Below, one piece after another: positions 18,906-63,699 of a DNA stretch of 64,000 nt. The stretch lies in NCBI RefSeq assembly GCF_007830635.1, contig NZ_VLLA01000001.1, positions 715,868 to 779,867 of the forward strand, in the 5' to 3' direction. The notes under the pieces were generated by a model. That model was not told where the DNA came from. It made no database searches and saw only the letters and a program-made list of their open reading frames with translations. The stretch comes from Bradyrhizobium huanghuaihaiense (lineage in GTDB: Bacteria > Pseudomonadota > Alphaproteobacteria > Rhizobiales > Xanthobacteraceae). The translations under genes and the position numbers were made by a program. How positions within the stretch are numbered: position 1 is the first letter of the stretch; the number at the start of each line of letters is the position of its first letter.

Positions 18906-18922
18906 TAAGTCAAAGTGAGCAA

Positions 18923-21255: not shown

Positions 21256-21431
21256 CCTTGATCGGTTAGGTTAAGGACCGGATTGCGTTGCGGGGCGCAG
21301 GCTGCACGCTAGGGTCGAATCGTCGCTTCACCTGGCCGGCGAAGCCGCCCTTCACGGCCAGCATTGCAATGAGCGGCACGGGACCGCCAGTGTTTACCGC
21401 GTCTGGCGGTCCCACCCGTTCTTCCGATGTC

Positions 21432-22432: not shown

Positions 22433-22523
22433 GGAGAGGTGGCAGAGTGGTTGAATGCACCGCACTCGAAATGCGGCATAGGTGCAAGCCTATCGGGGGT
22501 TCGAATCCCTCCCTCTCCGCCAC
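22433..22523 (+). tRNA. tRNA-Ser(CGA), island attachment locus
   Basis: A 91-base cloverleaf including encoded CCA. Acceptor stem GGAGAGG/CCTCTCC, anticodon loop CTCGAAA with anticodon CGA, a long variable arm typical of tRNA-Ser, and a T-arm GGTTCGAATCC. The integrase gene begins 93 bases downstream in the same direction. Confidence 0.95.
22495..22523 (+). other. Probable left attachment site (tRNA-Ser 3' end)
   Basis: Tyrosine integrases usually recombine within the 3' half of the tRNA gene, restoring it. This T-arm to CCA segment is the likely attL/attB core. I did not see a second copy in the remaining 41 kb by eye, so the right end is probably beyond the window. Confidence 0.5.
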
Positions 22524-22616
22524 CCCCCTCGAAAACCCCTAGAAAACAGCGGACCTTTTGAATCCAAAGGGTTTTCCGGATCCACCGTTGGTACACAACG
22601 TCGGTACACACGGATC

Positions 22617-36496: not shown

Positions 36497-36655
36497 GTTA
36501 CCTCCAGTTGCGGCGTCGAATTTGCTGCCTCGTCTGCTTGCCGACGGTTGTAGTCTTTCCGCATAACAATCGACAAGCGGGGTCTGTCGAAACATTAGAC
36601 TCGTATTCATTGAGCCAATTTGCTTGGAATACCTGGAGTCAAACAGCCGTGTCCT

Positions 36656-44574: not shown

Positions 44575-46221
44575 TTATTGGCTGGAGATGGGAACTTGCG
44601 CGCGCAGATCGACGACCTGAATGTCAGGGCGTCCGTCTCCATCCAAGGCCGCAATGACCTTGACGGGGAAAATATCGTCATATTTTTCCACGATCCCCCG
44701 CCCTGCGCGCCACCCGGCATCCCTCAGCTTTTCCGCACGGGGCCTGTCGATGATCACGTACCGGATCCCGACATCCGGAGGCGCGATCGAGATCTGCCGA
44801 AGTCGGTGTTCCGCTTCGACATGCATGGCGTCGACGATGACGTCGCGTCCTTCTTCGAGTATCTTCGAACTAGCGGCCCGGACCCGATGGAAGATGCCCG
44901 CCTGGCTGCCCGGCGTCTCCCCGTCGGGGTTCGTTTCTTTCCTGATCTCGTCCGAAGAAACGACCTCGACGCCCTGTGCGGCCGACCACCTCGACTTTCC
45001 TCCCCCGGACGGCCCGACGGTCAGTATCATGGACTGGCCGCATCGGGGCCAATTCCAGCCTGGAACGTCGGCCTCGACCAGTTCGCGGTGGGCCTCGTAG
45101 TAGTCCGAGATTCTCGCGATCTGATCCGGTTTGACAAGATCCGGGTGGGCGACCTTGTTTCGAATGGCGTGCGCGACGCGTCTTAATTCAGCTTCCTCGG
45201 GCGACAGGATGTTTTCCGTAAGCTGTTGAAAGTCGTAGAATTCGAGTTTCCAATAGTCGACGACGGGTACTTCCCTCGTTCCGTATTTCTTAATCCAAGG
45301 CTTCTGGGGTGACACTTTTTTTGCCAAAAAATCTTCATGACGCCGGATGAGTGACCGCAGTATCCGATAGGCAAAGGGGAGAAGCACGCCCGCCTGCGCG
45401 CTCCATAGCCGCCTGCGCAAATGATCGTGCATCCCGTATTTGACGGCGGCGACGGCGTGGACAGCCGGTTCGTCGTCCCAATAATCGACGAGTCCGTTCT
45501 CCCAGCACGGAAAGCGGAGGTTCGATGCCTGCGCCGCGCGTTCAAGCAGCGCGAACGGATCGATCTGGTCCGAAACCTCCCACGCGAGCATGTTTTCAAG
45601 AAGCTCGCGGGACCAGGCCGCCAGATCGATCGTCGTCGCGTGTCCGACGCGGGAAACCAGATCGGCTGACGGTCGGGTCCCGATCTGCGCGGCGTAACTG
45701 ATTGCGTCGTATCGACCTACGGAGCCCTGCGTCGACAGAAACCTCGCCGACCCGTTCAATACCGCGAGTTCGTCGCGGTTCAGCCCGGTCGGCACAAGCA
45801 CGATGACAACGGGGCCGACGATCATCTCTTCGGAACGAGACAGATGAAGCTGCCGTAGGAACAGACCCCATCGTCGCAAGGCGCTGCGCTCTATTCCGTC
45901 TACGATGAGGACCTGGTCGGCGAGTCCGGGATGCGACGCGAATTCGCCGACCGAGCCGATCTCAACGGCTGGGACGCCGAGAGATCCGGCCAAGAGATGC
46001 GGAATGGGTTGCGTCTGGTCTTCGCGGGAGACGTCCAGCGTGGCGCATTCGAGCGAAAGCTCGCTCCTGAGCTTCCGTTCGATCGCCCCGGACAATCCCG
46101 CGGGACGAGGGTTCGGCGCCGCCAGGCACAGCACCCTCTCGCGGTTTCCGACCGCCTGCACGATCTTGTTGATGATGCTGGACGGGCCCGCCAGATTCCA
46201 CCAGATGTCGAGACGGTCCAT
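44575..46221 (-). CDS. ATPase-like, HEPN-like and polynucleotide-kinase-like multidomain protein
   Basis: 548 residues, starting 4 bases after the giant gene's stop. Three parts are visible. The N-terminal ~200 residues look like a degenerate P-loop fold (V-L-C-L-A-A-P and a Walker B-like V-L-I-V-D-G-I-E). A central helical region carries I-R-N-K-V-A-H-P-D (near residue 354), fitting the HEPN ribonuclease R-x4-H motif. The C-terminus is a T4-Pnk/zeta-type kinase: V-G-P-S-G-G-G-K-S (near 404), S-S-D-E-I-R and V-I-V-D-A-M-H. Its position makes it a likely effector or partner of the PIWI-RE system; domain calls are inference. Confidence 0.7.
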   Translation of the reverse strand: MDRLDIWWNLAGPSSIINKIVQAVGNRERVLCLAAPNPRPAGLSGAIERKLRSELSLECATLDVSREDQTQPIPHLLAGSLGVPAVEIGSVGEFASHPGLADQVLIVDGIERSALRRWGLFLRQLHLSRSEEMIVGPVVIVLVPTGLNRDELAVLNGSARFLSTQGSVGRYDAISYAAQIGTRPSADLVSRVGHATTIDLAAWSRELLENMLAWEVSDQIDPFALLERAAQASNLRFPCWENGLVDYWDDEPAVHAVAAVKYGMHDHLRRRLWSAQAGVLLPFAYRILRSLIRRHEDFLAKKVSPQKPWIKKYGTREVPVVDYWKLEFYDFQQLTENILSPEEAELRRVAHAIRNKVAHPDLVKPDQIARISDYYEAHRELVEADVPGWNWPRCGQSMILTVGPSGGGKSRWSAAQGVEVVSSDEIRKETNPDGETPGSQAGIFHRVRAASSKILEEGRDVIVDAMHVEAEHRLRQISIAPPDVGIRYVIIDRPRAEKLRDAGWRAGRGIVEKYDDIFPVKVIAALDGDGRPDIQVVDLRAQVPISSQ

Positions 46222-46225
46222 GGCG

Positions 46226-49200
46226 TCACTCCGGCCGCAACAGAGCGGCGTGGACCAGAGCATTCAGGTCCACCTTGCGAATTCCCTGTCCTGATTGGTC
46301 CGGAGGAAAAGAGATGATCCCCAAGAGGTCGCTGTAGATGCCCACCACGCGCGGGGAGACATTGCGACCGTCGAACGTACAGAGACTCTGAAAGTCCGTC
46401 GTCGTGATGGTGGACCCGTCGGCATAAGCGGCGAGATCCCGGTAGAAGCCGATCAGCTGTTGCGGAATCCCCAGCCGATCGAGCAGATCTGACGACGTCA
46501 GGATAGCCTCTCTCTCCTGCTTGATCAGGTCCGGTGCATGCCGGGTGTCGTCGACGATCCGCGAGAGGAGCGGGCCCGCGATCTCGGACCATCCCCCCGT
46601 AGCTTGCATGATACGGTCGACGAGCTCCCCCGCCAATTGCAGCGACTCGATCCGGCTTCCGAGGTAGGACCTTGCCCAAGGGCGTAGTTTGACGATCTTG
46701 ATCTGAGGAAGCACGCGCTGAAGCACCGTCCGGTCCCTCGACCATTCCTCGGCATGCCCGGGATCTCCGATGAAGATCAGACGGACTTCGCCTTTGCGGA
46801 CCCTACCTACGCGTTCGGCCTCCACCACCCAATCGGGCCGCCAGGCGGTCTTCGGAGAGACGACCACAACTTTGAGCAGACGCTGGCCTTTGATCGCTTT
46901 CTTGATGTCGTCCAGCATGTCCTTCTTCGACTCGTAGTTCTTGATCTCGACGTCGACCAGTCTGTCCTTGACGCGTCGCGCATCCAGCAGTGCAGCTTCG
47001 ACGAAGCGGACGCCGGCATATTCGGTCCCGAAGACGACGCCGACTCCGCCTGCCGGCGTCGCGTCATGCGCGTTGTCGGCGGCGATCTGAAGCGGGGCGA
47101 GGAGGTCCGCCTCCTGGCCGTCGGTAAGCGGAGAGATGCGATCGCCACCGCCCGTCCCGGATCGCGGTTTTCCTATCGCACGACGGACGTTCTTCGGATC
47201 GAACGCCCTCGGCGGGGCCTTCAGCGTCTTGTAGCTCTCCAGCCGGCGTTCCAGATCGGCCTCGGTCGCGGCCATCAATTCCAGCAGGCTTCTCGATCGC
47301 AAGGCGAAGGATCCGGCGACCGTACGCCTGGCGATTCCAAAGCCTTCCATCTCCTCGAGCAGATATTCCAGTTCGTTGGGATCGGTCCCCCTTGGAAATG
47401 CCGCCGGCCAGCACTCCATCGCCCGTTCCGTGACCTCCGCCGCCGTCATCCCCTCCGCGGCCATGCCCGAGTCCCGCTCGCGAAGTTCGCGAACGGCCAG
47501 GATGTACGTCAGCAGTTCGTATCGTCCCTCGATGTGACCGATCGTCTTGTAGAATGTCTCGAAGAGTTTGTTCCGGATATCGGCTGAGCGCAGAGCGCGC
47601 TCCACAAGCGTGGTGCCGATGATTCCGGGAAGCTGCCCGGTCTTCTGCGCCTGATCGTGAATCAGCGAGAGCAGCTCCTTGCAGAAGACCTGGATCAGCA
47701 CGGGATAGTAGTTGGTGAACGTAAGGATTCGCCAAACGTCTTCGCGCTTGTCGAACTCGAAACCCATGGCCGCCAGGGGACCCCTGACCAGAAACTCGGC
47801 ATCGTCGACGTCGCGGTTGAGCAGAGGGCCGATCTGGAGGGGGTTGTTCGATATCTGCACCAGCGGCGAATTCTCGACCCGCACCATGCGCGACACGTTG
47901 TGAAGTCCGGCCAGCACGAACTTGAACCGGTTCTTCGTGTCGGCCATCAGCTTGAGCAACGTCTGCACGCAGACGAACTCCGTTTCGGCCTCTTTGCGGA
48001 CGAATCTGTCGGCTTCGTCGATCAACAGGAGAAGACGTCGCCGATCGTCCGCATCGAGCCATCCGCCGACTGCGGCGGCGAACTCCTCTCCCGAGCGCGC
48101 GGGAGTCTTGAACACGCCGGTCCCGATCGTTTTCGAGAATTGCTCGAAGGCGTCCGAAGCGTCGCTGACGAGGTCGAGATCGACGTAGGCGAATATGGCG
48201 TTCGAGGGTTGCGTCGCGTGGATCTGCTGCAGCAACGCCGTTTTGCCGAGCCGCCGTCCGCCAAACACGACGTAGGAGCCGAACGGATCGACGATGGCGC
48301 TTCGTTCCCAGGAGCGCCCCTTGAACATTTCCGCGGGGACCGCCGATTTGCCGTGATCCTTGTAGGGATCGGCGCTCGAATATGCCTGTGCGATGTCGAT
48401 GATCGCGCGGCGACGGTCGCTGGGGTCCGCGATCGCGAAGGCCAAGGCGGCCTCGTCGACCACTAGCATCGCCTGCTTCCGCTTGATCAGATCCAGCCGA
48501 AGCTGCTTGCGCCGCTCCACGTTCAGGACGCCGCGGTAGAGGACGAGGACGCCCCTATGTCCGGCTCCGTCCGCCAGATCCAGCAGGCCCTGCGGCGAGA
48601 TTGCAGACGTTACGACGCACATGCGCCACGACCCCTGTGTCTGGCTCCCGAACTCCGGGAGCAGAAGCGACGCCGGATCCGTCGGCGGCATCGATACCTT
48701 CGCGTCGAAGACGAAGATCTGTTGCCGCGGCCTGGTGAGGAGGGGGTCTTCGTCGCAGCGCAGGACCTCGAAGAGGAGCTGGGAGACGATCTCGCTGACG
48801 TTCGGTGCAATCTGTGCGGCGGAAGCGTTCTTCGGGGGCTTCAATTTCGTGAAGGATCTGGCGATGGTCGCTGCCTGTTGCCTGTGCTCCGGATCGAGTG
48901 CGCCGTAGTTGAGAGGTCCGTACTGCGTCCCGAGCTCGATGTTCCTGGCGACCTGCAGCAGGTCCACCTTGTCCAGTTGCGGCAGCATCGATCTGAACTC
49001 AGACAACCGCCAATTGATCGAGCCACTGGGTAGCAATGGCTTCCAGGTTTGACCGGTCCGCAGCATGTTCAGCCGGTCGGCCAGTGTCGTGAATTCCCGT
49101 CCCTCCAGCAGATGACGCAACTCGACGACCGTTTCGGCCTCGAGCCTCGTGTCGCGTTCGAGATGGTCGATGCTCGAGGTATATTCGGACATCGACTTGT

Positions 49201-52200
49201 CGAATTCGCGCTCGGCCTCCGTTTCGACGTCGTGGATCCGGGCGAGGGCCGCATTGAAATCCTCGATCCGATCGCCGGTCAGGGTCTCGGGAAGAAAGGT
49301 CGGCGGGAGCTCGACGGGAAGGTTTTCGGGATTGACCGTCGACAGGGTCTCCCTGAGGCGGGCGGACTGCTCGAGCGAGCCCACGGCCATGCGTCGCATG
49401 CGGTCGATCTTGCGTTCCGCCTCCTCGAGCAATCTCTTGATCTGGTGCTTCTTGGCCTCCTTGTCCGCGTCGAGCTCCGCTCTCCATGCGTCGGATTTTG
49501 CCTGCTCGATACCGAACCAGTGGGCGATGTTCAGCAGCATGTAGGCCGGTACGAAGGCCGACTCGCTGCGGCGTGCCTCGAAGGCGGCATGAATTGAGGA
49601 TGCGGGGTCGTCGCCGATGAGGGGGATGGGAACGACGAGGGCTTCTTGAAGGATCTTCTCCGGTACGTAGGGAGAGGGCTGCCAGCCGCCTGTCCAGGTC
49701 AGATCCCGCAGCCAGAGAAGCGGGCTGTGCAGTCCGACGGCGAGCGGGGGAACGTCCCGACCGATGGATCCGTTGCCCTTCAGCACGCCACGCATCATCT
49801 CGAAGATGGCTTCCGCTTGGCGCAGCGCGGAAGCGGTCAACGGATCAGACTTGGTCGAGTGGAAGCCGGAGATCGCCTCCGAAATCCCGGCCAGGGCATT
49901 ATCTCGAAGGCGCTTGACCGCTTCGACCCGTGAAGCCGACTTGCGCAAAACGGCGAATCCGTCGACCGACTGGACCAGATCGTGACACTGTTGACCGACG
50001 CGCGAAAGCAGCGCGAAGATGCGCTCGCGCGACGGCGCGTCGAGATCGATTCCGCCGCCGACTGTTTCGACCAGCTTTGCGATAAAGGCGACGACCTTGT
50101 CCCGCCCGCGAAGGAGTTCGTTCGCTTCGTGCGCGATTGCCTGGTCGTTCTCGGTCAGACGGGAGTCGAGCATGCCCAGCAGTCCATCGGGCTGGAGCAG
50201 CGCCTGTCGGACGCGCTCGCCGGATTGAAATCGGAAGCGCGCGGAGCGTAAACTCGCGACGGTATCTTTGATCGACGCGACGGCCTCGCCGATGAAATTG
50301 GCCTCCCGCGAGTGGGCTTGGACCGCCATGAGATTTGCGGGCGTCAACTGGAAATTCAGCTTCCGGTTCTCTTCCACCACAGAAAGAAGCTTCCGGTAAT
50401 GCTCGAAGCCTGGCTGGCGGCCCGCGCGCTCGACCAGAAGCACGGCGGCCACGTCGTCGGACCGGAAGAGCGCCGCCGGTAGGGCGCCGGCAATGAGAAG
50501 CGACAGACGCGCCACGGACCGGTCATCGTCAAGGCCCTCCAGCGACTGGGCGATGGGGAGAGCTTCGCTCCTCGATTCCGCGAGGAGGCTCAGGTCTTGG
50601 GAGGACAGGCCGATGGTTCGCCCGCCTGCTGACGCCAACCGAAGCTCCACAGGCGTATAGGTGTCGCTCGCCTGAGGCATCATCGACAGGACCGCCGAAC
50701 TCAAATGGAAGGCCAATCCGAATTCCCCGACTGAAAAGAGGTGGTCGAGACGGGCGGCAACCTCGTTTCGAAGCGGATCGCTAGGCGTAACATCGGGCAG
50801 CCCTTGTTCGGGCGCCGGGACGATCGGCGCGACCTCGATATCCTCCTCGGGTGCCTCATCTTCGGTGGCCTCAACCGGCAGGTCCGCTTCTTCCTCCGAT
50901 TCGCCAGTCGGTGACGGCGATGCAAGGACATCTTCCGTGGGTTCGACGGGGTCCGGAGCGTCAACGGTGGTTTGCGGTGGCACGTCGGGCGGCTCGGCCG
51001 GCGCCGCGAAGATCGCCAGAGCTTCCTCGACGAACCGAAGTGCGCGACGGAGCGACTGCTCCTGGGCATCCAGAAGCGGCGTCGTCCGCTCTCGGGCCTG
51101 CCTGGTTGGGAGGGTGGCTTCGAGGTCTGCGATCTCGATGGCGATGGCTTTCGCGTCGGCCACAGCGCTCTCCGCAATCTCGCGCCGAGTGGTCGCCTCC
51201 TCTAGATCAGCGAGTGGTGCTTCTTCGGGCAACTCGAACAGGCGGGAAAGAATCGACGGAGCGGTCAACTGCTCGCCGATCAGAGCATTCAATTCCGCAG
51301 ATATTCTGGTCGTCAGCCGTCGGATCGCCTCCCGCAGATCGGCGGTGTTGCCGAGGGCAGGCATAAGCTCCGCTGCATATCTCTCGAGATTTTCGAGGAC
51401 TTCCAACGACTCGCGCATGGCCGAGACGTGATTGCCGGTGGGGCCGTCGGATTTGCTCAGGTCGGCGAGCGCAAGCAGCCGGTCGCATTCGCGGCTCCAC
51501 GCCTCATTGATTTCGGCCATGCTCGATCTTGGCGAGAGGGTCGCGACATCGGCGATGTCTGTGGTCACTTCCGCTGCGGGCGGAGCCTCCTCCACGGCCG
51601 AGGCTCGATCGACCGTCGGGCCGATCGAGGCGATTTCCGGGTGGTTCAGAGCATACGGAGTCACGATCTCGTCGATGACCTCGCCGATCGTCCGCTCGTC
51701 TCCGAACCTTTCGAACTGGCCGACTACGGCTCGGAGATAGCGGCCCAGATCGCCCCATTCTCCTTCGCGAGCTTCGAGGCGGTCGAGACCTGCGGTAGCT
51801 CTCGCGCAGGGAGATCTCCACGCGGCCTGTCCTGGCAAGCCGAGCACATCCGCAAGGAGAGCGTCCTTGTCGCCACCGTTGTCGGCGGAGTGGAGTGCTC
51901 GCAAGGCGGCGAGTTGGTCTTCTGCCTTCGGAAGCGGCTTTTTCCTCCGCAACTGGGACCAGAAGTCCATGACCTTCTGGATGATCGCCCTTTTGGGCAG
52001 TCCCCTCCCGTTGTCGTCGGGGAAGAATTGATGCTGGAATACGATCGCGAACGCCGGATATCTCAGCGCATCCAGATACAAGCTCGGAATTTCCTGAAGG
52101 AGCGGACGCTCCTCGGGCCAGGGAAATCCCGTCACTTTCCGGATCCACTCCCGGTTTTCGTGCATCCGACGCGCGTCCGAATTGACGAGATGCATGGCGC

Positions 52201-55200
52201 CGGTGAGGAATTCCTCGTCGACGAAGGACGGCAGCGGAGCGGACGGTGATCTCAGCAAGCGGACGAGTGCCGCTACCTCGGCCTCTTCCCATGCCGGACC
52301 TTGGTTTTCCTCGATCGTCACTTTCGGCTCCGGTACTGCCATGGTCGCGGTCTCAATTGGGAATTTCGATGTTTCGGTGTTCGTGACGATTTCTGGTGTG
52401 CCGGTCGGAATCGCCGCCCACTGAGGAGGCCCGGTCATCGGCGGCGGGTCCGAAGAATCTTCCTCGAACGGCGGAATGTCGGCTTCGCCGAAGTCAGACG
52501 TGCCTTCGAACCAACGCCGCGTTTCCCCGTAGCTGGGAATGCTTCTGACCGGTTCCTCGTCGCTGGGGAGATCCGGATCCTCGTCGATGGCCAGGCCGTC
52601 GTCCGGCTCGTCGTCCTCCGGGGCGGAGGCATACCGGTCCATGTAGTCGAGAATCTTCGATCGGAAGGACAGCGGCGCCGGCAGGAAAGTACCGTCGGCC
52701 GTATGGGAATATCCGTTGCGAAGAGCCGAGACGAGCGTGGCCGCGGAATCCTCGTCGTCTCCGAGCTGCGATGGCAGGACCGTTATCTCGAGCGTGACGG
52801 GAATCCGCGAAGGCGTGCGCCACACATCGTTCACTCCGCGTCGCGAGAGTACCCTGTTGCTGAATTTGGCCTTACCCTTCGGCGTGTGCGCGTTCGCCCC
52901 TAGGAAACCCGGCTTCCGCCGGTAGACGGATTGTCCGCGGGCTCCCTGATTCCGGACGTCGAAGCCATGTGCGGTTAGGTAGTGGCGGGTCCGGGCGTTT
53001 CCCTCGGGCAGACTTTCGACCACGCGGGAGATGGCCGTGGCGTAGACCTCGTCAACGATCGCGCCCGCACGCTCGTTTCCTTCCTTCGTGACGGGGATCC
53101 AATTGCGCCTGCTTTCCGTCGCCAATCTGCCGGACGACCTCTCCCTGACGCGCACGAACCGCAAGGATTTCCACGACGCGGGTGGTCTTGCGGCCGCATC
53201 CTCGAGATACACGTCCGACGAGATGTTCTCGTCGGCGAGCCAGGTCCACAGAGATCTCGCGGTGGTGGATTCCACGAGGATCAGCGCATTCGGGTCGTCG
53301 CCGGCGACCTCGTCGATGACGGTCCGGACGAACGAAAGGAAATTCTTGCGGCGATCCGGTTGTTTGTCGCCCAGCGACGTCAGACCCGCCGATGCGACTT
53401 CGACGAGAGTGCGGGAGAGGGTCTGAAATGCTCCGCGGTCCATGGTGCCGTTCTTGAGCCGCCCGATGCGCCCGGAAATCCGCCCAGTTGCAACATCGAT
53501 CTTCGTCGCTACCGCCAGCACGGCGCCTTCCGGCCGACCGCCGCGGCTTGCCGATTGGGAGACGACCGAAATTCCGATGATCGACTTGGGACGGGCGCGC
53601 TCGTCGAAGGTCGAAGTCACGAGCTCCGACGGATTGGGTCCCAATCCAGCGTGTCCGAACAGAAGATCGTACAACGCGGCCTGGACCCGATGCATGTAGT
53701 CGGCCGCCTCTCCGTCTCCGGGCGGCAGCAGATACTGCACATTGCATCCTGCGAAGGTGGCGAGCGTGTTCCGCCCGACATCCTTGTTGACGCTGTCCTC
53801 TTCGATGCCGTCGTACTTCCGGGCAGCCTGGACAATGACGGGCGAGTTCGGGAATTCTTGGCGGATCTGCTCCGCAAGCGGAAGCCAGGCATCGCGTCGC
53901 ACACCCGCGCGCTGCGTTCTGGTCAATCTGGCCTCGCCGTCGAGAATCTTTCGCGTGCCGTGTACGCCGTCGGGGATCGCATGGCGGACGACATTGATAC
54001 GATCGCCGAAAAGCAGGGACACGGCCGAACGGAAGATGACCTCCTCGGATTCTCGCCGGCACACGAACATCAGGTCTATTCCCGTGCGGGGTCCGAAAGC
54101 CCTGTCGAGCAGTTCCCGGTTCGCCTGTCGCAACGGTTCGAGATCGACGGTCTTGATCGGCTTGGGCCTGCCTCGCGCCTTCTTCTCCGCGGAGCCGAAT
54201 AGTTCTTCGACTCGCGTCGGCACGTCTTCTTCCGGCACCTGCCCGAAGTGATGGGTGATCAGATTGTGGAGGTTCGCCTGCACACGGAATTCCTCCGGGC
54301 GGGCGGTGGCTCGGTCGAGAACACGCAGCCGGGACTCGGTGAAACCATATCTTGCGATGCGCTGGTGCACGACACGGGTAAGGTCGACCTGATCCTGCAG
54401 CGTGACGCCGAATTGGATCTTCGGAACGGGCCTGTAGCCGTATCTGAACGGAACCCCGACGAATAGATCGGGCATCCGCCCCCTATTCCTGACGAGTTCG
54501 GGCAGGTCTTCCGTCAACGAATCCTCGGAGGCCCGCTGCGCCTCGAAGAGCAAGGCGTCCAGATCCGGCTTCGGAACGCCCCTGTCGAGCCTGACGGAAA
54601 GCGTCGTCGCTCGGACGCGATCGCCTCGCTTGACAACCCGGACGGAGATGCGGCGGCGGCCGAACAGTTGATTGGCAGCCGGAAATTCGTTGCACCAGAT
54701 CCGTTTGGAGGCTCGGACGACGAGGTACGGCAGTCGAGAAGATGGACGGGTCTCGACGGATATTTCAGCGACCATGGAAAATAGATCGTCGCCGGCGTCG
54801 GGCAACGTCGTCGGCCAGGTTTCGAAGGCGATCGAATTGCCGTAGTCGCGGTCGAGCACGCGGTGAACCGGTCCGAGACCGGGGAAGAGTTCGGCTCCCT
54901 CGAGCTCCGGCGCGGCGATCGCCAAAAGAATATCCGCGAAATCGTGAAAATCGGTCCGAAGGGCGTCCGGCACTTGTCCTTCGGATGGCATGACCGGAGA
55001 CGGTAGTTGTTCGAGCAGCGCTCCTTCCAGTGCCCTGGTCTCCAGCAGATCGATGTCTCCGCAATCCGTTCCGAGCCGTTCGGCCCAAGGGCGCAGCGTA
55101 AGCTGACACCAGGAGGAGATCGATCTGTGGGCTGCGGATTGGACGTCGGCAGGTTTTCCGCTTGCGGCGAACAGCGGACGGCCTTGGTCCCGCGAATGGA

Positions 55201-55474
55201 TCCTCCCTTCGAGAAGGACCATGCCGATCACTCGGGCCTGCAGCGCGGCCCTCAAATCGGAATAAGGAAATTCCTTTCCCTCCGGACGTCCGGAGCCGAG
55301 AGCGATGCGGCGGACCCTGTCGATCAAGCTCTTGGCCGTTTCTGTCCAGCCGAAGCGGACGGGCGGAATGGGCGACGGGATCGACGGGGGCAGGCCGCGC
55401 CAGACGAGTGCGCATTCCAGCGTCTGGTTGTCGCGCGGCTGCTTCTTTACGTAGAATTCCTCGTCCCCGCTCAT
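46226..55474 (-). CDS. Giant pPIWI-RE protein fused to coiled-coil/AAA ATPase region
   Basis: 3082 residues from the ATG at 55474, which overlaps the helicase stop (ATGA). Residues about 1-450 fit the pPIWI-RE N-terminal X region; about 460-900 fit the MID-PIWI-like module, with L-M-F-V-C-R-R-E-S-E-E-V (near 470), S-I-I-G-I-S-V-V (near 632; the Asp expected in an active RNase H strand is Ser) and a terminal R-T-P-S-R-I-P-V-T-L-E-I near 888 that may hold the family's Arg and Glu. Acidic Pro-rich linkers lie near 960-1060 and 1500-1570. Helical sequence fills 1060-2380. An AAA-type ATPase follows: G-G-R-R-L-G-K-T (near 2406) and L-L-L-L-I-D-E-A-D (near 2483). Standard pPIWI-RE proteins are about 1,000 residues. 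No internal start with a ribosome-binding site was found at the junction. Confidence 0.82.
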   Translation of the reverse strand: MSGDEEFYVKKQPRDNQTLECALVWRGLPPSIPSPIPPVRFGWTETAKSLIDRVRRIALGSGRPEGKEFPYSDLRAALQARVIGMVLLEGRIHSRDQGRPLFAASGKPADVQSAAHRSISSWCQLTLRPWAERLGTDCGDIDLLETRALEGALLEQLPSPVMPSEGQVPDALRTDFHDFADILLAIAAPELEGAELFPGLGPVHRVLDRDYGNSIAFETWPTTLPDAGDDLFSMVAEISVETRPSSRLPYLVVRASKRIWCNEFPAANQLFGRRRISVRVVKRGDRVRATTLSVRLDRGVPKPDLDALLFEAQRASEDSLTEDLPELVRNRGRMPDLFVGVPFRYGYRPVPKIQFGVTLQDQVDLTRVVHQRIARYGFTESRLRVLDRATARPEEFRVQANLHNLITHHFGQVPEEDVPTRVEELFGSAEKKARGRPKPIKTVDLEPLRQANRELLDRAFGPRTGIDLMFVCRRESEEVIFRSAVSLLFGDRINVVRHAIPDGVHGTRKILDGEARLTRTQRAGVRRDAWLPLAEQIRQEFPNSPVIVQAARKYDGIEEDSVNKDVGRNTLATFAGCNVQYLLPPGDGEAADYMHRVQAALYDLLFGHAGLGPNPSELVTSTFDERARPKSIIGISVVSQSASRGGRPEGAVLAVATKIDVATGRISGRIGRLKNGTMDRGAFQTLSRTLVEVASAGLTSLGDKQPDRRKNFLSFVRTVIDEVAGDDPNALILVESTTARSLWTWLADENISSDVYLEDAAARPPASWKSLRFVRVRERSSGRLATESRRNWIPVTKEGNERAGAIVDEVYATAISRVVESLPEGNARTRHYLTAHGFDVRNQGARGQSVYRRKPGFLGANAHTPKGKAKFSNRVLSRRGVNDVWRTPSRIPVTLEITVLPSQLGDDEDSAATLVSALRNGYSHTADGTFLPAPLSFRSKILDYMDRYASAPEDDEPDDGLAIDEDPDLPSDEEPVRSIPSYGETRRWFEGTSDFGEADIPPFEEDSSDPPPMTGPPQWAAIPTGTPEIVTNTETSKFPIETATMAVPEPKVTIEENQGPAWEEAEVAALVRLLRSPSAPLPSFVDEEFLTGAMHLVNSDARRMHENREWIRKVTGFPWPEERPLLQEIPSLYLDALRYPAFAIVFQHQFFPDDNGRGLPKRAIIQKVMDFWSQLRRKKPLPKAEDQLAALRALHSADNGGDKDALLADVLGLPGQAAWRSPCARATAGLDRLEAREGEWGDLGRYLRAVVGQFERFGDERTIGEVIDEIVTPYALNHPEIASIGPTVDRASAVEEAPPAAEVTTDIADVATLSPRSSMAEINEAWSRECDRLLALADLSKSDGPTGNHVSAMRESLEVLENLERYAAELMPALGNTADLREAIRRLTTRISAELNALIGEQLTAPSILSRLFELPEEAPLADLEEATTRREIAESAVADAKAIAIEIADLEATLPTRQARERTTPLLDAQEQSLRRALRFVEEALAIFAAPAEPPDVPPQTTVDAPDPVEPTEDVLASPSPTGESEEEADLPVEATEDEAPEEDIEVAPIVPAPEQGLPDVTPSDPLRNEVAARLDHLFSVGEFGLAFHLSSAVLSMMPQASDTYTPVELRLASAGGRTIGLSSQDLSLLAESRSEALPIAQSLEGLDDDRSVARLSLLIAGALPAALFRSDDVAAVLLVERAGRQPGFEHYRKLLSVVEENRKLNFQLTPANLMAVQAHSREANFIGEAVASIKDTVASLRSARFRFQSGERVRQALLQPDGLLGMLDSRLTENDQAIAHEANELLRGRDKVVAFIAKLVETVGGGIDLDAPSRERIFALLSRVGQQCHDLVQSVDGFAVLRKSASRVEAVKRLRDNALAGISEAISGFHSTKSDPLTASALRQAEAIFEMMRGVLKGNGSIGRDVPPLAVGLHSPLLWLRDLTWTGGWQPSPYVPEKILQEALVVPIPLIGDDPASSIHAAFEARRSESAFVPAYMLLNIAHWFGIEQAKSDAWRAELDADKEAKKHQIKRLLEEAERKIDRMRRMAVGSLEQSARLRETLSTVNPENLPVELPPTFLPETLTGDRIEDFNAALARIHDVETEAEREFDKSMSEYTSSIDHLERDTRLEAETVVELRHLLEGREFTTLADRLNMLRTGQTWKPLLPSGSINWRLSEFRSMLPQLDKVDLLQVARNIELGTQYGPLNYGALDPEHRQQAATIARSFTKLKPPKNASAAQIAPNVSEIVSQLLFEVLRCDEDPLLTRPRQQIFVFDAKVSMPPTDPASLLLPEFGSQTQGSWRMCVVTSAISPQGLLDLADGAGHRGVLVLYRGVLNVERRKQLRLDLIKRKQAMLVVDEAALAFAIADPSDRRRAIIDIAQAYSSADPYKDHGKSAVPAEMFKGRSWERSAIVDPFGSYVVFGGRRLGKTALLQQIHATQPSNAIFAYVDLDLVSDASDAFEQFSKTIGTGVFKTPARSGEEFAAAVGGWLDADDRRRLLLLIDEADRFVRKEAETEFVCVQTLLKLMADTKNRFKFVLAGLHNVSRMVRVENSPLVQISNNPLQIGPLLNRDVDDAEFLVRGPLAAMGFEFDKREDVWRILTFTNYYPVLIQVFCKELLSLIHDQAQKTGQLPGIIGTTLVERALRSADIRNKLFETFYKTIGHIEGRYELLTYILAVRELRERDSGMAAEGMTAAEVTERAMECWPAAFPRGTDPNELEYLLEEMEGFGIARRTVAGSFALRSRSLLELMAATEADLERRLESYKTLKAPPRAFDPKNVRRAIGKPRSGTGGGDRISPLTDGQEADLLAPLQIAADNAHDATPAGGVGVVFGTEYAGVRFVEAALLDARRVKDRLVDVEIKNYESKKDMLDDIKKAIKGQRLLKVVVVSPKTAWRPDWVVEAERVGRVRKGEVRLIFIGDPGHAEEWSRDRTVLQRVLPQIKIVKLRPWARSYLGSRIESLQLAGELVDRIMQATGGWSEIAGPLLSRIVDDTRHAPDLIKQEREAILTSSDLLDRLGIPQQLIGFYRDLAAYADGSTITTTDFQSLCTFDGRNVSPRVVGIYSDLLGIISFPPDQSGQGIRKVDLNALVHAALLRPE

Positions 55475-58400
55475 TCGCGTCGCGTCTCCGGGAAGATCAC
55501 GTTCTGACAGGCGCGAAGAGGGTGGAGGAACGGTTCGTAGAGCAGGCGATAGATCTCGCGCTCGACGGCATCGTTCGAGTCGAGAAGCTCGGCCAATACG
55601 TCGCGCATCGCGACGATCATGCTGCTCCTGTTGCCGTCGCGTTTTTCCTTGGCCGAATTGGGTGCGAACGATGCGTCCACGAAATGCACGCGCGTCTTGC
55701 AGCCGTTGCGCATGGCGCGCCCGATCGTTTGGAGCAGGTCGACCATGCCGTCGGCCACGAACGGCTGTATCATGGGGCCCAGCCTGCTGATCTGCTGCGG
55801 CCGGCGGAGCAGCCACCGCAGCGAGTCGAGCGCTTCGTCCCGGGCACCGCGCCATTGCCTGACGAGTTGCGCGACGTCCGCGCTGGGGTCGATGGTTCGT
55901 CTGTCGAATTTCAGGGCCAATTGTCCGGCCAGCCCCCCGGTGAATGCGAGGCTGTCCGCCGTCGGATGGGGCCGGATGAAGAAAGCCACGTTGCCCAACA
56001 CCGCGTCCCGGACCCGAGGTCCGTCGGAGAACACTATGTTCACGCCTCGACCGATGGCCTTCATGGGAAACACCAATGCGTCCCAATCGTCTCTGGCGCC
56101 TAGAGTCTCCACTTGGCTGGCCGACACCCACTCTCCCCGTTCAGACGACGGAACCTTCCTGATGTCCGAAGTGACGCCGACCACGCGGTGCGCGGAAGAG
56201 GAAGTTCTTCTGAGATGCGCCTTGATGAACGTGACCTGGTCGTAGGAATTCACCACGATGCCTGTCCGACGACCCGGATCGAACTGGTCTTCGCGCAGTT
56301 GCCGGACGAGCGGATCTGCACCGCCGAAGTAGTGGTCCGTCAGTAGCCGCAGCGAGTGCTGCCGCTCTCGTTCGGATCCAGCGCCGCTCACGCGAACGTA
56401 TTCGCCGGGCCGGTCCGGATCGTTCACGGGGCGGAAGGAGTACACGCTCTCGCGCCAAGCCTCGCTCTCGCCTTCCCTGCGCAAAATGTAATTCGGCCGG
56501 ACGGGGACGTGATAACTTGGGCTCGGCGCAAGATAGCTGGTCGCCGATGCCATCAGGACGGCAGGCCCCTTGATACCGTCCTCCGTCAGCATTTCGGATA
56601 GGTGGTAGAGGAGGAGCCGCGGCACGCCGGCGAACGAGAGATACTGCAAGGCCAGGGATTTCTGCCCGCGATCGTTCGTTTCGTAGGAGAACCGGATTCC
56701 GGACAGCCGTCCGATCAGGGATTCCGGCAGATTTCGTCTCAAGTCAGCCGACACCCCCTGGCCGAAGACCCTCTCTGTGTGGACGCCTTCCGCGATCATC
56801 GCGTACTGGGCGGGCACCAGCGCGAGGAATTGTAGGACCACCGTCGTCACTTCGACTAGGAAGCGGAAAAGGATTCGCGCCTCTTCCGGGTCCAGCCCCT
56901 CTCGGGGTGGAATGATTCCGAAGAACGCATCCTTCATCTCGTCGTAATTCTCCTCGAACCGCTCGACGAGGCGTGCGCTCAGCAGCCGAAACAGTGCCGT
57001 CCGGAATCTATCCACGGCCGCGTCGAGCTCGCGCCGATCGACCTCCAGGTCCCGGGCCACCCGTTCGAGGTTAAGCTCGGTCAGATCGTCCTCTCCGTCG
57101 CCCCCCACCTCGTTGGTGAGGACCGAACGTACCAACTGTTCGAAGAAACGCCTGAGGCCGTCGAAACGGACGCTTCTATGCTCGTCCTCATCGGTTTCCG
57201 GATTGAGATACATCGTCGCGAGGATCGAATTGCCCGTGACGAAGGCGTCCTTGAACCTCGCCAGAATTCCGCCCTCTTCTGCCATTCGTTCCAGCAGATG
57301 AGCGCGCAAGGCCCGGTTGAGACGCATGAAACGATTGGACGCCAACGTGTAGTTCTCGATCGAAGCGGAAAGCCCGAACCCTCGTCCAGAGGCGACGGGG
57401 TCGAATACGTCGTCGAGAAGCATCGATTCGTAGGATTCGGACGAGCCGAAGAGATCCAGTTCGGCGATTCCCTTTCCATCCAGTGCCGCCTGCGCTCCGT
57501 CAACTTCGTCGATGATGACGAGGTCGCTCGTTCTCGCGACTCTCTCGAAGTGACGCATGCGCTCCGCGTGGAAGTGGGGCGAGACCGACACGTCCGTGGA
57601 GATGACGTGCCCGATGTGCACGAGCGCTTCGGCGTCCGCCAATCTGCGCGCGGAACGCTGCCGGCCGCAGGAAGTCGCAAGCGGGCAGAGTCGTTTGCCC
57701 TCCTGCCCTTCCTTGCCGTCCTTCTTCAGCTTGGCTTGCCGTATCGAAGTGCATGGAGGCCTGTCGTGGGGGAAGTCGAAGGACGGCGGTGGGACGGAAA
57801 CAAATCCAGACAAGGCGCAGCGCGTGCCAAGCAGTTCGGCTCCCGCCGCGGTCTGACCGAACCCTCCGCTGTCCATCGTCGCGATCCGTTCGGCCAGCCG
57901 GGTGGCGTGACTTCTTCGCGCATCGGGCGACTGCCCGACCAGAAGTGCCGTCGGGACGGAATAACGCGCTAGGTCGGCGTCGATCGCCAAGGCGAACTCG
58001 ATGGACGGCACAAGTAGCGTGACCCTCCGCCCCCGCCTGGCGAGCGCGACTATCAACAGGAAGATCAATGTGGATTTGCCGGCTCCCGGCAGGCCGATCA
58101 TGTGACTGACGCCGTCGAGCGTTATCGTGGAATTCGGTGCGAGCCGATTTCCTTGCGGCGATAGGACCGAAAAGACCGGATCGCCCCCGACCGATCTCAA
58201 CCTGGTCAGGAAATTGCGCGGAGGGCGGGTCGGGTCGCGGGCGTCTTCCTCGTCGAGCACCTTCGCGATCGCTTCGAGGTCGGCGAGGGTGATCGCGATC
58301 GGGTCGCGCTCGCGCTTGTCGGGGGCGACGGGCAGTATGGGCCGCAGAACCTGGATGTCCCGTGTATCGCAGATCGCGTCCGGGCTGTTGTCGCCGTCGG

Positions 58401-58851
58401 CGCGAAACCGGAATGGGCGCGTATGGTCCGCGGCCGAGCGTTTTTCGGCTTCTTGCGGCAGAGATCGCAGCAGCTCCTGCAGCATGTTCTGGCGCCGCGG
58501 GTCGCTTGCGCGCACCCTTTCTCTGATCGTGAAGCCCGTTGCAGGATCCGTCGAGATCTCGAACGGCGGCTCCCGGTAGTCGTCGTCGGAGGCATGATCC
58601 TCCTCCCAGACACGCGCTTCCATCACGGCTTCCTGGAGGTGCGCGTCGGATTCGATATTCATCCCGATCAGACGGAGATTGCGCAGCGCGATGCGCGCGC
58701 TTCCGAGAGCGGGATGGCGGGTTATCGATCGATAGCCGGACAGAAGCGCGGACGCGCCCGATAGCGTCTTCATCCCGAGGATGTCGTGCATGACGCAGGC
58801 AAGCCACTGCGCGCGCAGCGCCGGAACGAAGGCGTCGGGAGACGTCCTCAT
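55471..58851 (-). CDS. DinG-type helicase of the pPIWI-RE module
   Basis: 1126 residues; the start overlaps the endonuclease stop and the end overlaps the giant gene start, each by 4 bases. Motif I is G-L-P-G-A-G-K-S-T (near 255), motif II V-I-I-D-E-V-D (near 447), motif VI Q-T-I-G-R-A-M-R-N-G (near 1044). Four cysteines (T-R-C-A, P-P-C-T, R-L-C-P-L-A-T-S-C) lie between motifs I and II at about 345-395, where DinG/XPD helicases hold an iron-sulfur cluster. DinG enzymes unwind R-loops and 5' overhangs, which fits RNA-guided restriction of transcribed DNA. Confidence 0.85.
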   Translation of the reverse strand: MRTSPDAFVPALRAQWLACVMHDILGMKTLSGASALLSGYRSITRHPALGSARIALRNLRLIGMNIESDAHLQEAVMEARVWEEDHASDDDYREPPFEISTDPATGFTIRERVRASDPRRQNMLQELLRSLPQEAEKRSAADHTRPFRFRADGDNSPDAICDTRDIQVLRPILPVAPDKRERDPIAITLADLEAIAKVLDEEDARDPTRPPRNFLTRLRSVGGDPVFSVLSPQGNRLAPNSTITLDGVSHMIGLPGAGKSTLIFLLIVALARRGRRVTLLVPSIEFALAIDADLARYSVPTALLVGQSPDARRSHATRLAERIATMDSGGFGQTAAGAELLGTRCALSGFVSVPPPSFDFPHDRPPCTSIRQAKLKKDGKEGQEGKRLCPLATSCGRQRSARRLADAEALVHIGHVISTDVSVSPHFHAERMRHFERVARTSDLVIIDEVDGAQAALDGKGIAELDLFGSSESYESMLLDDVFDPVASGRGFGLSASIENYTLASNRFMRLNRALRAHLLERMAEEGGILARFKDAFVTGNSILATMYLNPETDEDEHRSVRFDGLRRFFEQLVRSVLTNEVGGDGEDDLTELNLERVARDLEVDRRELDAAVDRFRTALFRLLSARLVERFEENYDEMKDAFFGIIPPREGLDPEEARILFRFLVEVTTVVLQFLALVPAQYAMIAEGVHTERVFGQGVSADLRRNLPESLIGRLSGIRFSYETNDRGQKSLALQYLSFAGVPRLLLYHLSEMLTEDGIKGPAVLMASATSYLAPSPSYHVPVRPNYILRREGESEAWRESVYSFRPVNDPDRPGEYVRVSGAGSERERQHSLRLLTDHYFGGADPLVRQLREDQFDPGRRTGIVVNSYDQVTFIKAHLRRTSSSAHRVVGVTSDIRKVPSSERGEWVSASQVETLGARDDWDALVFPMKAIGRGVNIVFSDGPRVRDAVLGNVAFFIRPHPTADSLAFTGGLAGQLALKFDRRTIDPSADVAQLVRQWRGARDEALDSLRWLLRRPQQISRLGPMIQPFVADGMVDLLQTIGRAMRNGCKTRVHFVDASFAPNSAKEKRDGNRSSMIVAMRDVLAELLDSNDAVEREIYRLLYEPFLHPLRACQNVIFPETRRE

Positions 58852-59960
58852 CCGACGACGAGCCCCACCACGTCGCCCACTTTCGCGAAAACGACGGACG
58901 TGCTTCCCCGGTAGGCGAGCCGAAGATCCTCCAGGTAATGCGGCCTTCGGTTCACCATCGCGTCGGGGACGGCGACGTAGCGGCGATTGAACGTCGCAAG
59001 TCCGCCGAGACGCTCGGAAAGCGTTTCACCGAGCAGCCGTGGGCAGGAATAGCTTTTGACGTCGATTCCCAGTTCATGCGAGCGCCCTACGTCGGCGGCG
59101 TCGTCCCGCGGGTAGAGGACGACATCGACGCCCGCCTCGCGCAGTTCGTCATGCAGCTGTATTTCCGAAAGGCCGGGCCCGACCCAATAGGCGAGAATGT
59201 CGTCGGCGTAGACCCGCCAGCCCGAGGCGCTCTCTATCGTCGCGCCCGCCCTTGAGGACGGCAGTTCTTCAAGACAGGGGCCTATCCGGCATCGGCCTTC
59301 GGGGAACGCCGTCGTGTCGCGATGAGGGTAGAGAAGTCCGCCGCAATTGCCGCAAATGTTGAACGATCCGTCACGACGCATCGCGCCGAGGGGAATTTCG
59401 GTGGACCAGCGACGCAGAACCTCGTCGGCTACGACCACCCCATTCTCTTCGAGAAAATCCGATAGTTCTCGCCTTTCGTACACGGGCTTGCGGACGATGC
59501 GCTCGCGCAAGATCGAGTAGATCTGCAATCGCTGCTCGGTCCTCACCCGCTGCACGATCTCGCGCAGCTGTCGATGATGGATGTCCTCGAAGGCGTCGTC
59601 TGGTTGCCCCTTCGCCGCCAACGCCCGGCATTCTTCGGTCGGAGCGACGGGTTCGGGTGACAGCAGCTTCACTTCGGCGAAACGGAAGGGCGCGGCCAAT
59701 GCCGGTACACCCCAACCGCCTACGGGAAGCCGACGCGCCATGTCAGAAAGGCAGTGGATGCTGTCGGCTATGTCCCCGACCGCCGACGTCAGGCAGAGCC
59801 GGGACAGCATTTGCATTCCGGTGCCCATGGACTCGGGTAGCTGGAAGGGGTCGACGATCTCCCCGGACCGAACGCCAAGATGCAGGTCGACGAAGCCCCT
59901 GCTCAGCATTCTGAGCGCGACCTCGACCGTATCCTCCGAATCTGCTTGCGTAGTCACCAT
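58848..59960 (-). CDS. PD-(D/E)XK endonuclease of the pPIWI-RE module
   Basis: 370 residues. A helical N-terminal half is followed by a four-cysteine element (I-C-G-N-C-G near 201, then R-C-R-I-G-P-C near 230), probably a zinc ribbon. The C-terminal restriction-endonuclease fold shows E-I-Q-L-H-D-E-L-R, G-V-D-V-V-L-Y-P-R and the catalytic I-D-V-K-S-Y near residue 300. This matches the REase that is encoded with pPIWI-RE and DinG genes. The ribosome-binding site is weak. First gene of the leftward operon. Confidence 0.85.
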   Translation of the reverse strand: MVTTQADSEDTVEVALRMLSRGFVDLHLGVRSGEIVDPFQLPESMGTGMQMLSRLCLTSAVGDIADSIHCLSDMARRLPVGGWGVPALAAPFRFAEVKLLSPEPVAPTEECRALAAKGQPDDAFEDIHHRQLREIVQRVRTEQRLQIYSILRERIVRKPVYERRELSDFLEENGVVVADEVLRRWSTEIPLGAMRRDGSFNICGNCGGLLYPHRDTTAFPEGRCRIGPCLEELPSSRAGATIESASGWRVYADDILAYWVGPGLSEIQLHDELREAGVDVVLYPRDDAADVGRSHELGIDVKSYSCPRLLGETLSERLGGLATFNRRYVAVPDAMVNRRPHYLEDLRLAYRGSTSVVFAKVGDVVGLVVG

Positions 59961-59984
59961 GCGATCATTAAAACTTAATATACG
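59961..59984. promoter_or_regulatory. 24-base divergent control region with ATTAA inverted repeat
   Basis: The endonuclease and WYL regulator 2 start codons are only 24 bases apart. ATTAA-AAC-TTAAT (59967-59979) is an inverted repeat with 5-base arms. Promoter elements for each gene must therefore extend into the other's coding region, unless the WYL protein starts at the internal Met (60015). Confidence 0.45.
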
Positions 59985-60893
59985 ATGTCTGTAAAGTCAC
60001 TATCCGAACTAGATATGAAGCGGGGCGGGGCAGCGCTCAGGGCTCGCTTGAAGTACATCGATGACCGGCTGGTCTGGTTTGGCTTTTTGCGACTCGTCGA
60101 CTATGCCGCAAAATTTGGCATATCGGACGTGCAAGGCAAAATAGATATAAAGACTTACCGCAACCTATCGTCCACTCCGCCACCCGAGCGCAAGCCCGGA
60201 CCGGCCGCAGCGGGTGCGTCACCTGTGGGTACGTACGGGCGTCCCGACGATTTCGTCCCGCTCTTCGAGGGAGTGCGCTCGCTAGACGACCTCTGGCTGA
60301 CGAGGCTGGAGGACGCACGTCCGGACGAATCCTTGACCGTCGAGCGTCTGGTCATGCCGGCGCGCAGCATCCATCCGGATGGCGTCAGATCGCTCCTCGC
60401 CGCCACCGAACTCCGCGAGAGTTGCCAGCTCGGCTATCAGTCGATGACCAGCGCGGAGACCAGCGATCGAACCGTCTGCCCTCACGTGCTGGTCAAGGCG
60501 TCGGGTCGCTATCACGTCAGGGCGTTCGACTTCTCGCGGAAGCGGTTCATCGACTTCTCCCTTTCGCGCGTCCTTACTTCGGTGCCGCTCGTCGGCGACG
60601 CGCCGGTTCCGTCCACATTGGACGACGATTGGCATGCGATGATCGACGTCGAGTTCGTCCCCCATCCGAGGCTTTCTCCGGCCCAGCGTCATACGATCGC
60701 CCGGGAATTCAGCATGGTCGGCGGCGCAAAGATCGTCAGGGTACGCAGGGCGTTGTTGTTCTATCTGTTGGACGAGATGAGATTGCTGGCGGCGGTCAGG
60801 CTCCTAGATGCGGAACTTGCCGATGTGGCCGTCTGGATCAAGGACCCGCGCCGTGTCGCTTCCGAACTCACGTCGATGGAGAGCGGTAGCTGA
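59985..60893 (+). CDS. BrxR/CapW-like HTH-WYL transcriptional regulator 2
   Basis: 302 residues. The N-terminal helix-turn-helix-like part (R-A-R-L-K-Y-I-D-D-R-L-V-W-F-G-F-L) is followed by a Pro-rich linker and a WYL domain (C-Q-L-G-Y-Q-S-M-T, V-K-A-S-G-R-Y-H-V-R-A-F-D-F), then a WCX-like region (V-R-R-A-L-L-F-Y-L-L-D-E-M-R-L). It resembles regulator 1 in order and spacing (L-E-V-R-Y-Q-S-M-S versus C-Q-L-G-Y-Q-S-M-T). It is divergent from the endonuclease operon and probably represses it. A start at 60015 is an alternative. Confidence 0.87.
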   Translation: MSVKSLSELDMKRGGAALRARLKYIDDRLVWFGFLRLVDYAAKFGISDVQGKIDIKTYRNLSSTPPPERKPGPAAAGASPVGTYGRPDDFVPLFEGVRSLDDLWLTRLEDARPDESLTVERLVMPARSIHPDGVRSLLAATELRESCQLGYQSMTSAETSDRTVCPHVLVKASGRYHVRAFDFSRKRFIDFSLSRVLTSVPLVGDAPVPSTLDDDWHAMIDVEFVPHPRLSPAQRHTIAREFSMVGGAKIVRVRRALLFYLLDEMRLLAAVRLLDAELADVAVWIKDPRRVASELTSMESGS

Positions 60894-63532: not shown

Positions 63533-63699
63533 CACTGCAATCCTTCTCAGAACTTTCGCTTGTTCGACGGCGCTTCCAGTATCGAGCTTTCGGGTGCCTA
63601 ACCTTCCGGCCAAACTTTAATTCTCGCCTACCGTCCCTACGAGTTCGCCGGACTGCTTAAGTTTCGGTTGCCCGGACGTGGTTAGCCTTCCGTGAAGGG

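Follow-up and report, generated by a model that had tools for sequence, protein, structure and literature searches.

The cellular role of pPIWI-RE islands and the source of the guides of bacterial Argonaute-like proteins are open questions, and both are raised by an operon in a stretch of 64,000 nucleotides from Bradyrhizobium huanghuaihaiense (RefSeq assembly GCF_007830635.1, contig NZ_VLLA01000001.1, positions 715,868 to 779,867 of the forward strand; hereafter the window). An earlier note, made from the letters of this DNA, described it as a three-gene pPIWI-RE system for RNA-guided restriction, extended by a fourth gene and a divergent WYL regulator. What, then, does this operon encode besides restriction? 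In the present study, the third gene was found to encode a giant protein in which a pPIWI-RE part is followed by a STAND-type ATPase module, and the C-terminal ~2,000 amino acids (aa) of this protein form, together with the product of gene 4, an independent STAND-ATPase/HEPN pair, a merger of two systems that the earlier note missed. In a single operon, the locus joins pPIWI-RE with an immune switch of the STAND style and with a predicted RNase and 5'-end kinase. We propose, at a confidence slightly short of even, that an island of this kind is a guide-based sensor of invaders that triggers DNA cutting together with abortive RNA cutting. Judged from its sequence, the system is understated by the term RNA-guided restriction, because at least one catalytic Asp of the PIWI domain is apparently absent and a predicted RNA-cutting effector is attached.

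A pPIWI-RE island fused to a separable ATPase module

The genes for the restriction endonuclease (REase), the DinG-type helicase, the giant protein and gene 4 form one leftward run, with 4-base overlaps at the REase/DinG and DinG/giant junctions and a gap of 4 bases between the giant gene and gene 4; the WYL gene lies 24 bp from the REase start (Table 1). The coordinates, Pfam and PADLOC agree with the earlier note on the order of nuclease, DinG and PIWI, and the profile search that it had proposed for the three proteins returned pPIWI-RE matches, in the N-terminal region of the giant as well; the nuclease and the helicase had no better match to unrelated systems. The REase matched pPIWI_RE_REase (PF18154, 1.4e-14), pPIWI_RE_Y (PF18156, 7.6e-8) and PADLOC PprRE (3.2e-44), and consists of the pPIWI_RE_Y domain, a zinc ribbon (C203xxC / C224xxxxC) and a PD-(D/E)XK nuclease with a GIDVK motif (IDVK at residue 299). 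Its Cys and D/DxK columns are kept in the alignment across fused and standard islands, and a search of this protein alone against 50,697 phage records gave no match at E 1e-5. DinG matched pPIWI_RE_Z in its N-terminal domain (PF18155, 1.6e-5) and PADLOC PprDinG (8.6e-162), and carries Walker A GAGKST (256), a DEVD box (448) and a Cys cluster (367-395).

The PIWI-RE-like N-terminus that had been recognized in the third protein was confirmed by RNaseH_pPIWI_RE (PF13032, 2.1e-22), MID_pPIWI_RE (PF18157, 2.4e-9) and PADLOC PprPIWI (2.7e-40 over residues 62-943), with pPIWI_RE_X (PF13111) at E 1.9e-5, under its curated cut-off. Regarding catalysis, the expected Asp columns of the window protein hold Ser in the first and Glu (E735) in the second, as assigned in an alignment that contains no active reference sequence. 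The first column has no Asp in any aligned row, fused or standard, and the second has Asp in most relatives. Since no row has Asp in the first column and the window protein has Glu in the second, the PIWI domain here probably does not cut. The FVRVRE strand (773-778) and E896 lie roughly at the spacing of the published P. stutzeri Arg and Glu, for which the alignment holds no mapped reference, and the hallmark Glu column is variable among relatives. The PIWI proteins of five standard islands were unfused and 908-1,064 aa long; a sixth standard island (L091) was left out, its PIWI gene being in pieces.

As an account of the third protein, however, a PIWI-RE-like N-terminus is incomplete, because the protein is a full fusion to an ATPase module that also occurs separately. 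The module comprises, in order, an N-terminal domain, an acidic stretch, a helical region, the STAND ATPase with a winged helix, and C-terminal alpha/beta and helical domains, and an AlphaFold2 (AF2) model of giant residues 2240-3082 reached a confidence (pLDDT) of 88.6. The assignment to STAND is based on fold matches and invariant Walker motifs; among Pfam matches with E up to 0.01, nSTAND1 was found in 12/58 module members and AAA_22 in all 58. A search with giant residues 1100-3082 gave 125 homologues, of which 120, including the query, were listed; the PIWI part is present in 43 of the other 119 listed (41 of at least 2,800 aa) and absent from 76, and the separate module proteins are about 1,750-2,100 aa long.

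The partnership of the module with gene 4 was examined by scanning one genome per species, which yielded 505 related stretches, the best 79 loci of which, 14 of them fused, were kept. Adjacency was counted in those 74 loci that had 900 bases or more downstream, the other five being dropped for want of room, and a gene-4 homologue adjoins the ATPase gene in 57 of the 74. This pair occurs in Acidobacteriota, Planctomycetota, Cyanobacteria, Pseudomonadota and other phyla. The 17 loci without an adjacent gene 4 include ten from cyanobacteria, among them loci with a sigma-factor fusion and sufficient room, and one locus (L034) that was counted as a miss with gene 4 lying 3.7 kb further on. The fusion to an N-terminal sigma-70 factor is a third architecture of the module, found in cyanobacteria: sigma similarity was detected in ten module proteins (L019, L020, L022-L025, L027-L029 and L033), Pfam recognizing sigma regions 1.2-4 in L028, and the eight of these ten loci with downstream room all have no adjacent gene 4.

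These counts bear on the possibility that the operon performs ordinary pPIWI-RE restriction of DNA, the ATPase being a loading or remodelling motor for REase and DinG (ORC/MuB-like) and gene 4 an accessory end-processing protein. Such an explanation appears unlikely to us: in 43 of the 57 pair loci the ATPase and gene 4 occur without PIWI, so the partners in DNA restriction are not required, and the HEPN Arg and His are the invariant part of gene 4.

Table 1. Genes of the operon and the domains and motifs discussed in the text, in window coordinates.
Feature	Position	Strand	Remarks
REase gene	58848-59960	-	370 aa
DinG-type helicase gene	55471-58851	-	1126 aa
Giant fusion gene	46226-55474	-	3082 aa; pPIWI-RE N-terminus, acidic linker and STAND-type ATPase module
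pPIWI-RE part	52595..55474	-	Residues 1-960; X region, MID 489-615, RNase H fold 632-945
ATPase module	46229..52237	-	About residues 1080-3082; unfused homologues start at the equivalent of about 1040-1080
STAND-type ATPase core and winged helix	47219..48370	-	Residues 2369-2752; Walker A GGRRLGKT 2405, Walker B LLLIDEAD 2482
Gene 4	44575-46221	-	548 aa (562 aa if the upstream ATG is used)
HEPN Rx4H motif RNKVAH	45145..45162	-	Residue 368 of the 562-aa frame
Polynucleotide-kinase-like domain	44584..45042	-	GPSGGGKS, SSDEIR, lid GWR
WYL-domain regulator	59985-60893	+	Divergent from the operon; PF13280 2.2e-8

The gene order and the fusion were also found in 14 genome loci of other species and on complete plasmids, a recurrence that indicates that the layout is not due to chance. 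REase, DinG, fusion and gene 4 are laid out in this way in 14/14 fused loci; DinG was present in every one, and REase was identified in 12 by open reading frame (ORF) and in two by profile on translated DNA. A WYL homologue occurs within the fetched stretch of 6/14 fused loci and is divergent, co-oriented or downstream; it is likely that the WYL protein is a repressor or a ligand-responsive regulator. The extended layout had been thought uncommon, which holds for pPIWI-RE as such and not for the fourth gene, constant in all 14 fused loci. Counting the window's own genome in each sample, pPIWI-RE was found in 2/397 genomes of the order, 2/385 of the class (one being a 75-aa frame) and 3/398 of the phylum (one below the cut-off). 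Ten of 265 genomes of the genus carry the ATPase module, as five long fusions, one separate copy (a 1,962-aa frame) and four partial copies. With a PIWI-less module as the query, the 397 genomes of the order gave two matches, both of which were long frames that also matched PF13032.

The possibility that two independent defence systems merely share one promoter and one chain, with no functional coupling, has to be considered at this point. Either half occurs without the other, and further defence-type genes lie in the same island, both of which accord with it. On the other hand, the tree shows that the fusion has been kept across deep branches, and the identities of the PIWI and ATPase parts are closely correlated (r = 0.973 for the 136 pairs that 17 loci give), which is what a single capture and joint descent thereafter would produce. 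Corresponding values for the other parts were 0.95-0.98, and 0.85-0.89 for WYL, which had fewer pairs. Considering also that the kinase of gene 4 tracks the PIWI lineage, as described in the next section, we regard a lack of coupling as improbable.

An internal start of the giant gene was considered as well, since the unfused protein P0038 starts at the position that corresponds to a linker Met of P0034. Met1045 was rejected as such a start, as it is preceded by no Shine-Dalgarno-like sequence, and no consistent Shine-Dalgarno sequence was present at the matching place in the 14 fused loci.

The kinase-like domain of gene 4 and probable loss of the PIWI cassette

Gene 4 encodes an N-terminal alpha/beta domain, a HEPN-type domain and a C-terminal polynucleotide-kinase-like domain (AF2 model, pLDDT 93.6), which substantiates the kinase and HEPN-like features described in the earlier note. 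A Walker A motif is absent from the N-terminal domain in 58/59 homologues. In the model, R354 lies within helix 341-358 and H359 just after it, which is the expected placement of the HEPN motif at a helix end, and this Arg and His are invariant in 59/59 aligned homologues and in 57/57 in a further count, and are found in 100/101 database homologues. With E values allowed up to 1, the profile HEPN_Swt1 matched 17/67 members, at best with 3.1e-4, and did not match the window protein itself. The C-terminal domain matched AAA_33 at 1e-11 and has all the features looked for in a kinase of the Pnkp/T4 type, namely, Walker A, the acceptor DxxR, the lid Arg and the kinase fold. Its nearest fold is that of the bacterial Pnkp kinases, and the fold-match list for gene 4 (VIA) was filled by this domain.

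The kinase is confined to the lineage that bears PIWI and to the closest kin of that lineage. It was found in 14/14 fused loci and in 3/43 unfused loci with gene 4 (L005, L006 and L015), and all three of these are close kin of fused loci; in L015, the ATPase ORF is shortened and the contig ends just upstream of it. The acceptor DxxR is intact in the window, in 14/14 fused loci, in three fused plasmid loci and in four more fused loci of the genus, as well as in 95/99 of the database homologues that cover the site (101 in total).

Bacterial Pnkp kinases are RNA-repair enzymes, and the nearest fold suggests another role, in which the kinase would act as a safeguard, by RNA repair or in the manner of an antitoxin, that contains HEPN damage and is unconnected with guides. 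The intact kinase motif of broken system remnants, described below, fits this role too. Nevertheless, the kinase is absent from 40 of the 43 unfused loci with gene 4, which weakens the repair or antitoxin explanation; furthermore, the profiles run on the operon proteins found no ligase or phosphatase domain, and the kinase active site has decayed in three loci that have a whole ATPase gene but no PIWI, in which the HEPN motif is retained. We consider a safeguard role to be rather unlikely.

These three loci, from Phyllobacterium (L005), Mesorhizobium (L006) and an Agrobacterium plasmid (L082), carry gene 4 and a whole ATPase gene without PIWI. The WYL gene stands directly before the ATPase gene in L005 and L082, at the place where the fused locus L009 has WYL, REase, DinG and PIWI; in L006, it is downstream on the other strand. 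In the tree, the three form one clade (100/98) beside L009 and within the clade of all fused rows, and PF13032 was not found in the two whole genomes (L005, L006) or on the L082 plasmid. Because of this nested position and the lack of PF13032 in the genomes and plasmid, the PIWI cassette was most likely lost while the ATPase-HEPN pair persisted. The unfused database ORFs, including P0038, were not used as proof of such loss, since a broken upstream frame would look identical.

The acceptor motif SSDxIR is broken differently in each of the three, as SADCIS (L005), STESIT (L006) and SSSTMG (L082), and their lid is degraded, with the HEPN Arg and His retained. That the cassette went from this one clade, and that the kinase site then decayed with the HEPN motif kept, points to a kinase that serves the PIWI side. 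Conservation of the two halves of gene 4 was also compared. The kinase half was more conserved than the N-half in 151/153 fused-fused pairs (mean difference +0.133) and in 1/3 PIWI-less pairs (-0.035); against L009, it was better conserved in 17/17 fused partners, whereas L005 and L006 had the lower value in the kinase half and L082 had the same value, to two decimals, in both halves. Since the pairs are not independent and the loss lies in one clade, we take the link between kinase and PIWI as a hint rather than proof.

Incomplete copies, either of the module or of gene 4 (L100-L102, L104, L087 and L088), were present in genomes of the same genus as the window and on plasmids of Bradyrhizobium, and the system appears to be often lost.

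Proposed mode of action and genomic setting

The proposed sensor for invaders would operate as follows. A nuclease-dead PIWI domain would carry a short guide and find invader nucleic acid that DinG helps to open as an R-loop. Recognition of the target would allow the REase to cut the invader DNA and, via the covalent fusion, would set off the ATP-driven assembly of the STAND part, which in turn may activate the HEPN RNase of gene 4, so that RNA is cleaved and the cell is halted. We infer that a STAND/HEPN switch of abortive infection has taken up a guide-based sensor of the PIWI type. The domains, the fusion, the co-occurrence with gene 4 and the decay of the kinase site are seen in the sequences, and a role in defence, the guides and the signalling are what the proposal adds to them.

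HEPN RNases leave 5'-OH ends. The products of gene 4 would be expected to carry such ends and to be phosphorylated by the kinase on the same protein, and the phosphorylated RNAs may then be loaded as guides through the MID pocket of PIWI, by which detection would be fed forward. Because the kinase is of the Pnkp type, resides on the same protein as HEPN and is kept with PIWI, its simplest function would be to make 5'-phosphorylated RNAs for this pocket, and the phosphorylation of RNA guides is its most likely activity. In its fullest form, this amounts to a guide factory with a kill switch: HEPN fragments would be phosphorylated and loaded into PIWI, HEPN would be driven in turn by STAND in a feed-forward manner, and REase and DinG would destroy the invader. 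The fuller version is doubtful; under it, loss of the cassette would leave a STAND/HEPN alarm with a kinase free to decay, as in the three-locus clade.

Several observations weigh against the proposal that the operon couples guide-based sensing to RNA cutting through a guide-making kinase. The PIWI-RE protein of P. stutzeri shows much the same affinity for guides with a 5'-OH as for guides with a 5'-P (PMC10991935, as far as its accessible part states). In pairs of one fused and one PIWI-less locus, the kinase half of gene 4 was still the better conserved in 50/54 (+0.064), and PIWI-less remnants with a broken ATPase gene (L087, L101 and L102) retain an intact DxxR. The remnants and the count of 50/54 lowered our confidence slightly, from an even chance to just under it for the invader sensor, and by a similarly small step for the guide factory, which was doubtful from the outset.

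Regarding a guide-RNA gene, Rfam at the gathering threshold yielded tRNA-Ser alone in the window, which leaves room for a guide locus of an undescribed kind. This tRNA-Ser and a tyrosine-integrase-like ORF that begins at it (DUF6538, Phage_int_SAM_1) occupy 22433-23930, and a serine recombinase lies beyond the WYL gene at 62588-63613, about 40 kb from the tRNA gene; the two may possibly be edges or parts of a mobile defence island. A Zac-like system at 30487-36610 (ZacA 2.2e-86, ZacB 3.4e-106) includes a ResIII/Helicase_C protein. It is followed at 36659-42708 by a UvrD helicase with a PD-(D/E)XK end and a second PD-(D/E)XK protein, and a second WYL regulator (42996-43880) is located between this pair and gene 4. 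On the B. elkanii plasmid pK07G (L085), a UvrD/PD-(D/E)XK pair is likewise near the operon, and a DUF6361/PLD/helicase set stands right behind the operon's WYL gene. Besides B. elkanii, large plasmids of Azospirillum and Microvirga carry fused copies; the annotation of A. ramasamyi splits the giant into two genes.

The ATPase/HEPN pair has neighbours of its own in other genomes. Druantia III genes adjoin it in L054 and L062, both of which have, by profile, a Druantia type III-like DruE (a helicase of about 2,000 aa), joined in L062 by DruH; the remaining DruE and DruH assignments, including those beside the pairs of L063 and L079, are by clustering only. A cyclase of the type used in cyclic-oligonucleotide-based antiphage signalling (CBASS) occurs near L005. 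In L082, the genes directly after the PIWI-less pair (16763-21271) encode a hypothetical protein, an adenylyltransferase of the ThiF type and a phospholipase resembling patatin, a combination that recalls a CBASS set.

A locus borne on plasmids or other elements could instead serve the maintenance of the element or competition between genomes, and not defence. Homologues do reside on large plasmids, some of them typed as conjugative, and the integrase-like gene at tRNA-Ser is near the island of the window, but the company of defence genes (Zac in the window; Druantia III and the CBASS-type cyclase in related loci) argues against this role, which we find very improbable.

For the proposed guide-based sensor with an abortive RNase, two questions have become direct: whether the guides bound to PIWI depend on the residues of HEPN and kinase, and whether a PIWI module that recognizes its target can trigger STAND assembly. 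If the guide-factory version is true, the locus would represent immunity of the bacterial Argonaute family with its own guide production and a kill switch.

Comparison with known systems

Among the papers listed by searches of the open-licence PubMed Central (PMC) literature, outside of which most subscription journals lie, we recognized no description of a PIWI-RE/STAND fusion or of a PIWI-linked HEPN-kinase protein, and PMC7159879 contributed nothing further. A paper on EVE domains (PMC7641849) was set aside as irrelevant to the locus, its matches in the portion available being to 'Piwi-related'.

The closest relative of the first half of the operon is the three-gene pPIWI-RE island (Burroughs, Iyer and Aravind 2013, PMC3702460). 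According to the available portion of that description, the window operon shares with it the order REase, DinG and pPIWI-RE, the X, MID and RNase H regions, overlapping genes, a patchy distribution and the frequent loss of catalytic residues. In the published model, as given there, an R-loop is recognized, DinG is recruited and the REase cleaves. In the same portion, PIWI stands alone, belongs to the triad or, in rare cases, has a zincin domain fused at its N-terminus, whereas here it is followed in one chain by ~2,000 aa of STAND-type ATPase and the HEPN-kinase gene is constant. The P. stutzeri PIWI-RE nuclease performs RNA-guided DNA cleavage and DNA-guided RNA cleavage in vitro, using the catalytic residues D525 and D610 (PMC10991935, in its accessible part); the columns presumed to match hold Ser and Glu here, which makes the window protein more likely a binder.

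The second half resembles the two-gene nSTAND2 system (eLife 2021, PMC8195603), which, in the part of the publication that could be consulted, consists of an active STAND NTPase and an inactive STAND module fused to an effector, mostly GT4 or HEPN. Compared by description and not by sequence, a mobile two-gene operon with an active STAND gene and a HEPN partner is common to both; PIWI, REase, DinG, kinase and WYL parts do not figure in what that part describes. The BREX-related ATPase DUF499/Hma with a fused HEPN (PMC12839542; Ava_2192, PMC3710099) also combines an ATPase with a HEPN RNase in one defence locus; by the available portions of these papers, it differs in the name of its ATPase family and in being methyltransferase-based, and PIWI is not mentioned in them.

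Gene 4 shares its kinase fold and active-site motifs with the 5'-polynucleotide kinase of bacterial Pnkp, but its kinase is joined to a HEPN-type protein, and no phosphatase or ligase module was found with it. Lastly, in comparison with STAND immune NTPases, such as Avs3, CED-4 and the plant resistosomes, the candidate sensor of the protein described here is the fused PIWI module.

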